Positions 18,313 to 20,098 of a stretch of DNA of 20,676 nt are shown piece by piece. The position numbers and the translations under genes are program-made. The stretch is from the IMG/VR virus record IMGVR_UViG_3300010371_000624, positions 1 through 20,676 of that record; one strand, 5' to 3'. Within the stretch, counting starts at the first letter, position 1; each line of letters begins with the position of its first letter. Under the pieces are notes generated by a model that was not told the DNA's origin, searched no databases, and saw only the letters and a list, made by a program, of their open reading frames with translations. Source of the DNA: a virus.

Positions 18313-18912
18313 TTATTTTCCCTCTGGCTTCGGGGCTGCGGCGAGCATGCTTTTTGCCAATCTTTGGCGTTCATACAATTCCTGCTGGTAGATCGCTGCT
18401 CGATAGCTATTGGTGGTCGATGAATCCATGCTCGTTTCCACGTCTGCAGCAATTTTTTGCAGATTGTCCGACTGAACAAGCACCATTCCTTCTGGCACCT
18501 GAGCACTCGCCAATTTGATGATCTGATCGATGATTTCTGGATAGCTTCCCTTGAAACTCCACTGGTTGTAGCGCAGACGCTTTTCTATCTCTCGGCCGAA
18601 CTGTTCCCAATACTTGAGTTCCTCGGAGGATTCACTCGCCAGCATCGGCGCGACGGTTTCAATCATTAGGTCGGATATCTCCCGCGCCTTAGCGTAAGAG
18701 CGTGCAGAGGGGAACGGTGCCCCGGAAAGAATGGCCGCGACTTTTTCCACGAACGTTGCAACTATTTCATCCGTCACCCTCTCCTTCGCCGATTCGCGCT
18801 CGCGCAGGAGGGCGGCGTAATCACGGAGCATTTCCATGTGCACGGGATTGAAATAGCCCCTTTCCGCTTTCTCGACATATTCCAGCACCTGCTCCGCTGT
18901 GTACTTGCTCAT
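18313..18912 (-). CDS. Early-region phage protein with 'MLAAAP' C-terminus (199 aa)
   Basis: 199 residues, soluble, helical. The N-terminal segment (SKYTAEQVLEYVEKAERG... MLRDYAALLRERE) and the tail SMLAAAPKPEGK are typical of variable early proteins in many phages (Ea22-like composition), whose functions are mostly unknown. GGGAG 8 nt before the ATG supports the start. GC is visibly lower than in the replication and structural genes, consistent with recent exchange. Confidence 0.75.
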   Translation of the reverse strand: MSKYTAEQVLEYVEKAERGYFNPVHMEMLRDYAALLRERESAKERVTDEIVATFVEKVAAILSGAPFPSARSYAKAREISDLMIETVAPMLASESSEELKYWEQFGREIEKRLRYNQWSFKGSYPEIIDQIIKLASAQVPEGMVLVQSDNLQKIAADVETSMDSSTTNSYRAAIYQQELYERQRLAKSMLAAAPKPEGK

Positions 18913-18944: not shown

Positions 18945-19002
18945 GTCCACCTTGTTGCGCAGGTGTTATCCTGCGAAAATGGGGTCTAATCAGGTGTTGG
19001 GC
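18945..19002. repeat. Degenerate attC-like element 1
   Basis: 58 nt. Right core GTTGGGC (18996-19002) matches the integron consensus GTTRRRY exactly; the left end GTCCACC (18945-18951) is one base from RYYYAAC. An inner 6-bp stem CGCAGG/CCTGCG with a TGTTAT loop is at 18958-18975, and the outer arms pair as CACCT/AGGTG. The inner arms are asymmetrically placed (6 versus 20 nt from the ends), so it is at best a decayed site. Alone it could be a chance hairpin; its length and spacing match the two better sites to the right. Confidence 0.35.
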
Positions 19003-19241
19003 GGCAAACTGTCGATCAGGCTTGATTCAAGGTTGCACACTTCATCCGCGCTTGCCTTGTCGTAGCAGGCCTTGTGTGCCCGGTAGAAATAGCTGCGTGC
19101 ATCGCCGGGCTTCATCAAGCTAATAGCCCTCATGGGCCGGCTAAGCGGCTTGAGGCAATACGCACATGGCACGCCAAGGCCAGGATCAAATGCAGGGGCT
19201 TCCTGCTCCGGCGCATCAAAATATCCAAAAATCTCGGTCAT
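18990..19241 (-). CDS. Small Cys-pair (zinc-finger-like) protein in cassette-like unit
   Basis: 83 residues. CAYC at residues 26-29 and HKAC at about 56-59 give a CxxC...HxxC pattern expected of a small zinc-binding domain; the rest (LMKPGDARSYFYRAHKACYDKASADEV) is helical. The start, 21 nt from the attC-like element 2, has only a weak GAG ribosome site. The TGA lies 4 nt beyond the GTTGGGC core of element 1. The gene thus fills one 317-nt unit between two attC-like elements. Function unknown. Confidence 0.7.
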   Translation of the reverse strand: MTEIFGYFDAPEQEAPAFDPGLGVPCAYCLKPLSRPMRAISLMKPGDARSYFYRAHKACYDKASADEVCNLESSLIDSLPPNT

Positions 19242-19261
19242 GTTCGTTTCTCGTGTCTGCC

Positions 19262-19319
19262 GTCCAACTCTGCATTCCAGCGGAGCGCGTACCGCGCCCG
19301 CTGAATTTGGTTGTTAGCC
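19262..19319. repeat. attC-like element 2 (integron recombination-site architecture)
   Basis: 58 nt with ends GTCCAAC (19262-19268, perfect RYYYAAC) and GTTAGCC (19313-19319, one mismatch to GTTRRRY). On the - strand these read GGCTAAC and GTTGGAC, the latter a perfect core. An inner stem CAGCGG/CCGCTG extends to ATTC/GAAT, with one unpaired C on the left arm, as in real attC sites where an extrahelical base sets strand choice. The central GC-rich loop AGCGCGTACCGCGC is self-complementary. The TAA stop of the 79-aa gene sits inside the right core, the place gene cassettes usually end. Confidence 0.65.
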
Positions 19320-19553
19320 GTCATTGAGGCCCAATAGCAGCGTGTGGGCATCCTTGTAAGTCGCGTCATCCTTGATCCACGGGTTGCCGCGCAGGTCGGT
19401 GTATTCGGCGTGCTTTTCGGGGTCAAACTCGACGCTGCTGGTGACGCCGCCCTGTTGGACATACGGCGCACCCGGTCGGCATTCCAATACTTCCACCGTC
19501 GCGTCCTGATCCGGGAACTGCGCCAGCCATTCGATAAACTCTCGCACTCGCAT
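19314..19553 (-). CDS. Small conserved phage protein in cassette-like unit (79 aa)
   Basis: 79 residues from ATG 19553, 6 nt after AGGAGGT, one of the best ribosome sites in the window; the frame further up runs into the attC-like element and is not used. The opening RVREFIEWLAQFPDQDATVEVLE and later EFDPEKHAEYTDLRGNPW match a small phage protein family without known function (short beta/alpha fold, acidic). The gene fills a 316-nt unit between attC-like elements 3 and 2, with its TAA inside the core of element 2. An alternative is an ordinary phage gene flanked by palindromes. Confidence 0.8.
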   Translation of the reverse strand: MRVREFIEWLAQFPDQDATVEVLECRPGAPYVQQGGVTSSVEFDPEKHAEYTDLRGNPWIKDDATYKDAHTLLLGLNDG

Positions 19554-19577
19554 CGTTACCTCCTGCCGTCGCGTGAC

Positions 19578-19633
19578 GGCTAACACGTCATCCAAGCGGA
19601 CGGCTGCGCCGCCGCTTAATTCAAGGGTTACCC
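19578..19633. repeat. attC-like element 3 (integron recombination-site architecture)
   Basis: 56 nt. Left end GGCTAAC (19578-19584), right end GTTACCC (19627-19633), each one or two bases from consensus and complementary except at one position. The inner arms CCAAGCGGACGG and CCGCCGCTTAATTCAAG closely follow the classic 59-base elements of aadA-type cassettes, including TTAATTCAAG before the right core and extra C residues on the left arm. It separates the 33-aa ORF from the 79-aa gene. Confidence 0.62.
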
Positions 19634-19722
19634 AAAGCGAGCCGGATCAGCTCTACCGTTACTGACTCCACACCGGAATGCGTCCAACACGCACCCGGCC
19701 CGCATTCGCCCTGTAAGTTCAA
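19621..19722 (-). CDS. Possible 33-aa protein, TTG start
   Basis: 33 residues, ending VTVELIRLALGNP. The TTG start overlaps the stop of the preceding membrane-protein gene (TTGA), and the stop lies inside attC-like element 3, as in cassette-borne genes. There is no Shine-Dalgarno, so translation would depend on re-initiation. The Cys-rich first half followed by an amphipathic helix looks protein-like but is short; it may be chance. Confidence 0.3.
   Translation of the reverse strand: MNLQGECGPGACWTHSGVESVTVELIRLALGNP
19676..19707. repeat. Inverted repeat GAATGCG/CGCATTC
   Basis: A perfect 7-bp stem (19676-19682 and 19701-19707) with an 18-nt loop lies within the possible 33-aa ORF. GTCCAAC in the loop (19682-19688) reads as the perfect core GTTGGAC on the - strand, but I find no matching second attC arm. 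Could be a transcript structure or a remnant. Confidence 0.35.
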
Positions 19723-19898
19723 ACCCGGCTGACCGCCCAGGCAATGATCGGCCACGCGATCGCCACCAGTGCGGCGACGACCACGCCGCAGCAGACGATG
19801 CCCAACAGCGTATCCAGGAAGTCGTGCGGCTCGCCGATGCCCGGCTGGTAGCCCTGGCCCTGCATCGGCTTGTGCCGGTTCGCGAGATGGTTGTTCAT
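19719..19898 (-). CDS. Small single-TM protein (59 aa)
   Basis: 59 residues from ATG 19898, which overlaps the previous stop (ATGA, 19895-19898). A polar Gln/Gly/His-rich N-terminal part is followed by one strong hydrophobic segment (residues about 30-56, LLGIVCCGVVVAALVAIAWPIIAWAV) and SRV. No cleavable signal peptide; topology is probably N-in or N-out with a single anchor. Early-expressed small membrane proteins of phages can block superinfection or disturb host membranes; which applies here is not known. The longer frame to 20156 is rejected because it crosses the 67-aa gene and the promoter. Confidence 0.7.
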   Translation of the reverse strand: MNNHLANRHKPMQGQGYQPGIGEPHDFLDTLLGIVCCGVVVAALVAIAWPIIAWAVSRV

Positions 19899-20098
19899 GA
19901 CTGGCCGTCCAGAGTGGGTTTGTGCCGGTGGTAGTCGCGTTCGGCTTGTTCGTAGATCTCGCGGGTTGTCTCGAATCGCCACGCGTACAGCGGCGTGCCG
20001 CACTTGAGCCTTTTGTCGCTTCCTACCCTTGTCATGAAATGCTCGTCGCTTATGGCTACCGAGTTTTGCATGACGATTGCCGTGGGTTCGTAACTCAT
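19895..20098 (-). CDS. First gene of leftward early unit (67 aa)
   Basis: 67 residues from ATG 20098; GAGGG lies about 8 nt upstream. The frame also runs 13 codons further to 20137, but that start would sit inside the promoter. The sequence (SYEPTAIVMQNSVAISDEHFMTRVG... YAWRFETTREIYEQAERDYHRH) has beta strands and a C-terminal helix. Function unknown. As the promoter-proximal gene of the early unit it is expected to be strongly expressed soon after infection or induction. Confidence 0.7.
   Translation of the reverse strand: MSYEPTAIVMQNSVAISDEHFMTRVGSDKRLKCGTPLYAWRFETTREIYEQAERDYHRHKPTLDGQS

Follow-up and report, generated by a model that had tools for sequence, protein, structure and literature searches.

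Antisense gene cassettes in a two-site attC cluster of a phage operon and their probable exchange by a host integron integrase

The window analysed here, that is the whole stretch of DNA, is a 20.7-kb virus record (IMGVR_UViG_3300010371_000624, positions 1 to 20,676). It contains replication genes of phage type: a DNA polymerase, a helicase and an exonuclease. The best database relatives of the polymerase, Bordetella phage BPP-1 among them, reach no more than about 56% identity, and the BPP-1-like polymerase suggests a podophage-like virus. Two small genes on the minus strand, encoding 83 aa (18990-19241) and 79 aa (19314-19553), are embedded among phage genes of the same direction. Downstream lies a phage gene at 18313-18912 (minus strand). 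Upstream are a gene for a membrane-like protein of 59 aa (19719-19898, minus strand), conserved in the related contig L004, and a gene for 67 aa counted from its ATG (19898-20098, minus strand), 85% identical in L004.

We scanned the whole window, both strands and unfiltered, with a covariance model (R1) trained on 22 non-viral attC sites, taken from plasmids and from integron arrays of bacteria. A sequence-only reading of this DNA had proposed three attC-like elements and called for such a search; two strong matches were obtained, with exactly the ends given for elements 2 and 3, while element 1 had no match. Site 2 (19262-19319, plus strand; R'' GTCCAAC, R' GTTAGCC, left arm with an extrahelical C and A) scored 44.4 bits (E 1.4e-9) on the plus strand against 17.8 bits on the minus strand. 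Site 3 (19578-19633, plus strand; R'' GGCTAAC, R' GTTACCC) scored 42.3 bits (E 5.2e-9) against 10.1 bits. Apart from these sites and their reverse readings, the best match in the whole window had 10.2 bits (E 1.3). Both sites consist of R''/R' cores around a hairpin of L''/L' arms, with extrahelical bases giving polarity, and their recombinogenic (minus) strands fold more stably than shuffled versions (z -4.1 for attC 2, z -2.9 for attC 3). A blastn alignment links attC 3 with the aadA7 attC; in L097 the matching sequence sits directly behind aadA7, on its strand, and this attC also has the C and A bulges of the window sites. Covariation across 55 phage attCs gave 143 double-changed cells compared with 46 after shuffling, with 89.4% paired compared with 26-39% in slid versions. 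Elements 2 and 3 are genuine attC sites by model score and fold, and element 3 also by alignment; the last part of the R' core of attC 3 (GTTACCC) is probably phage backbone.

Being GC-rich and lying between the genes of a single operon, the hairpins could also be transcription terminators or RNA processing sites that merely resemble attC. We consider this most improbable, as no T-run follows the hairpins in either direction, Rfam gave no family match at them, and a model of bacterial attCs awards them 42-44 bits, their cores and bulges being correct.

Element 1 (18945-19002) was rejected as an attC: besides giving no R1 match, it has R-box-like ends but neither arms nor the pair of extrahelical bases between them. 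A likeness to a cassette start is confined to its last 7 nt, GTTGGGC (18996-19002, plus strand); this perfect GTTRRRY core can be read directly and forms the left boundary of the first cassette, arranged as at the first cassette of L034, and the rest (18945-18995) is not attC. In L034, too, no attC match precedes the first cassette. The first cassette may thus have entered a G/TT site that is not an attC. Such a site would be attG-like, and insertion of cassettes at attG has been described (Loot et al. 2024, as cited in PMC12444791). The likeness to that account is a first cassette behind a GTT core with no preceding attC, in the window and in L034; the difference is that here insertion is deduced from a one-sided structure, with no empty site in the viral contigs.

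Circular integron cassettes start with TT after a G and end with their attC. Both units in the window have this form. On the plus strand the order is backbone ending in ...ATCAGGTG, cassette 1 (reversed 83-aa gene, then attC 2), cassette 2 (reversed 79-aa gene, then attC 3) and backbone continuing with TTACCC. Cassette 1 (18997-19313, plus strand) and cassette 2 (19314-19627, plus strand) each run from G/TT to G/TT and hold one gene and one attC, which bears out the earlier claim of one small gene per interval. The two attC sites are 258 nt apart, and two is the minimum for a CALIN. No TIGR02249 match to an integron integrase was found in the window, as the sequence-only reading had stated, or in the 40-kb L004 contig. 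The locus is therefore a CALIN and not an integron, which would have intI and attI with the array; the window has no intI.

The 79-aa gene ends with a TAA within the R' core of attC 2, again as proposed from the sequence, and its ribosome-binding site AGGAGG (19559-19564, minus strand) lies within the cassette. It matches phrog_14647, and its relatives (53-63%), from Stenotrophomonas phages and further viral contigs, are phage genes located outside attC arrays, which favours a phage origin. The 83-aa gene reads through the core and has its TGA stop outside its own cassette, giving a C-terminus ...PPNT, a pattern that recurs in other phage cassette genes. Its orthologue in L004 is 94% identical; among annotated phages it has no match, and neither protein has a Pfam match.

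attC sites are asymmetric, and the gene of a cassette usually, if not of strict necessity, shares the direction of its attC. In the window both attCs are on the plus strand and both genes on the minus strand. The genes are antisense within their cassettes, because the attCs score on the plus strand and attC 3 also aligns there with the aadA7 attC in the reading direction of aadA7. We also considered placing the cassettes on the minus strand, which would make the genes canonical; the R1 strand scores rule this out. Core spacing, one gene per interval and a stop in a core would speak for a canonical CALIN with three attCs and normally oriented genes, recently captured from a bacterial integron, and phages can indeed carry bacterial cassettes (article text of PMC9892861). 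That reading now appears very unlikely: there are only two attCs, they are opposite to the genes by strand score, and the relatives of the 79-aa gene are phage genes outside attC arrays. What stands of the original proposal is a CALIN in a phage, with two attCs and G/TT exchange in relatives; the third attC and the canonical gene orientation do not.

Comparison with related phages, which had also been suggested, was informative. The 40-kb contig L004/L022 has flanks 92-94% identical to those of the window and also carries attC 3 and the 83-aa gene (94%), but between the attCs an unrelated 86-aa gene replaces the 79-aa gene. The third attC of L020 is the one that attC 3 of the window resembles, while the L004 counterpart resembles the fourth, as expected if the swapped gene brought its own attC. 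In a second comparison, L015 and L030/L031 share 2,813 bp at 100% identity, and three complete gene+attC units set them apart, with the junction GGGTCG/TTAGAG in the short form and TTTACG/TTAGAG in the long form; this is the product that would be expected from excision or insertion by an integron integrase. One G/TT-bounded cassette is common to L034, L051 and L060, whose flanks are unrelated, and L045 and L059 have an N6/N4-methyltransferase cassette in common. The related phages L020 and L027 carry four attCs and one, respectively, at the same place; L020 encodes a phage integrase. Taken together, these phages show that cassettes are gained, lost and exchanged at G/TT.

Phages swap modules at conserved linkers, and host or phage recombinases could in the same way have exchanged genes between hairpins acting as linkers, with no integron integrase involved. 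The swap between the window and L004, in which attC 3 and the centre of attC 2 stay similar, would agree with this. Homologous recombination of this kind is nevertheless unlikely here, since L015 and L030 differ exactly at G/TT, by entire gene+attC units that contain different attCs, common cassettes sit in the unrelated backbones of L034, L051 and L060, and the linkers carry an attC-specific asymmetry in the R1 strand scores.

Several further observations were made on these loci. The attC 2 of the window (19262-19319) and its counterpart L022:5330-5387 share the core and a 24-nt central stem but differ in both outer arms, each staying self-complementary. The L015 contig, a 37-kb phage contig, has a further pair of attCs, on the opposite strand (G278:C1:20326-20873). 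DNA methyltransferases are recurrent cargo of antisense phage cassettes (L045:9373-10008, L059:276-911, L046:2046-2714 and L053:2869-3531), three with an above-threshold N6_N4_Mtase match and that of L059 by alignment to L045. The joined empty-site string expected of a relative of the window phage had no match in IMG/VR viral contigs. A candidate bacterial home for a phage cassette gene was rejected, the lone close match (G255:C36, a 5,574-bp contig) appearing to be the L034 contig itself. Among isolate phages, only a P1 isolate had a DNA match to the L020 array, and it is described as carrying class 1 integrons (article text of PMC9892861).

We then compared gene orientation between phages and bacteria. 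Loci came from two IMG/VR pattern scans that were blind to gene direction and targeted one attC sequence family; the virus records are metagenomic assemblies, some of only 5-10 kb. Thirteen phage contigs were used: the window, eleven contigs verified through PHROG matches such as terminase, portal, head, tail, baseplate, primase, RecE and DNA polymerase, and L022, verified by its collinearity with the window. L055 looks like an ordinary integron array and was placed in the bacterial set, to which it adds 9 same-sense genes and 1 antisense gene. With automatic gene calls based on start codon and ribosome-binding site, the clear cassette genes of the phage contigs were antisense in 30 cases and same-sense in 3 (7 unclear), compared with 5 and 43 (11 unclear) in ten bacterial arrays (Fisher P 9e-14, for cassettes that are not independent). 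Because of this non-independence a vote per contig is fairer; counted and calculated by hand, antisense genes were in the majority in 13/13 phage contigs but in only one of the nine bacterial arrays whose majority was clear (P about 3e-5). The automatic calls are supported by the sharp clustering of stops and by the GenBank annotation of H101 and ctTUS972, in which 8/8 coding sequences are antisense to the attCs. The published phage CALIN of TJE1 has both annotated genes (2/2) same-sense, and the antisense rule is thus not universal.

Stops of 61 antisense genes fell mainly at offset +1 (27 genes; TAA formed by the core) and at -6 (18 genes; TGA, lying six bases into the arm of the adjacent attC), with 5 more at +8. 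Genes stopping at -6 have C-termini such as PNT or PNA. As a side observation, the C-termini of many antisense cassette genes, for example that at 18990-19241 of the window, converge on P-N-T/A/G because the reading frame passes through the attC core. TTA follows the G in 73/89 phage attCs, and 56/89 have a stop at -6. An own ribosome-binding site precedes 24/30 antisense phage cassette genes, compared with 13/43 same-sense bacterial genes, and the median interval is 264 nt in phages and 588 nt in bacterial arrays.

We conclude, with a probability of about 0.8, that the locus is a two-cassette attC cluster inside a leftward phage operon, with antisense genes and exchange by a host integrase. 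Cassette exchange would be carried out by an integron integrase, presumably supplied by the host because the window has none. The host-made enzyme would cut the folded bottom (minus) strand at G/TT, so that whole cassettes would be added, removed or swapped. The genes would lie antisense to attC because they must follow the direction of the phage operon, and could work after shuffling by means of their own ribosome-binding site and a stop taken from the core (TAA) or the adjoining attC arm (TGA). The antisense layout, with co-directional flanks, own ribosome-binding sites and stops borrowed from attC, fits such an operon. The orientation might serve to keep phage cassettes apart from those of the host, or to expose the recombinogenic strand; in chromosomal integrons, strand placement relative to replication alters excision (PMC11023631). 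Against this explanation, a plain G/TT swap does not account for the outer-arm differences of attC 2 between the window and L004. The integrase-free window and L004, the lack of an empty-site match in the viral contigs, the same-sense genes of TJE1, an array of no more than two attCs and the metagenomic nature of the virus records also count against it.

Among 20 virus records tested, G280 (L023) alone had an integrase family match above the cut-off. This contig (IMGVR_UViG_3300044712_002101), phage-like and encoding a primase, has an attC and, about 3.2 kb away, a full integron integrase (G280:C1:29469-30407; TIGR02249, 385 bits), and would be a phage with its own integron.

Phage CALINs have been published for TJE1, PH101/H101, P12002L and MW202573 (Qi et al. 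2023, PMC9892861), and in tests with attCs from three virulent phages, H101 and TJE1 included, IntI1 recombined 5/6. According to the article text, these clusters combine attCs with small genes and lack an integrase, as in the window; attC clusters in phages are thus already known, and the novelty is smaller than the sequence-only reading assumed. H101 and ctTUS972, both from that study, are antisense like the window, in contrast to TJE1; in P12002L, whose attCs are below the reach of the model, R1 found none. The text of PMC9892861 does not discuss how genes are oriented relative to attC or describe before/after phage pairs. In the open-access literature searched, to which subscription papers and the PMC9892861 supplement do not belong, we found neither the antisense rule nor stop codons borrowed from attC reported, nor cassette exchanges documented side by side. 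With chromosomal and mobile integron arrays the phage clusters share attC architecture, G/TT boundaries, one gene per cassette and, in attC 3, an alignment to the aadA7 attC; they differ in lacking intI and in their antisense genes and shorter cassettes.

Many phages of integron-bearing bacteria may possess their own pool of antisense small-gene cassettes, shuffled by host integrases, with orientation separating the phage and host pools; we put this tentatively, at slightly less than an even chance. If true, a phage cassette in a host integron would be antisense to the host promoter and silent, and a host cassette caught by a phage, for example an anti-phage one, would be silent there. Recent papers (2025, as cited in PMC12444791) have described integrons as anti-phage gene libraries. 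Phages using integron sites in the opposite orientation for accessory genes, methyltransferases included, would be the counterpart of these libraries and, if so, some phages would have a defined, testable mechanism for fast gene swapping.
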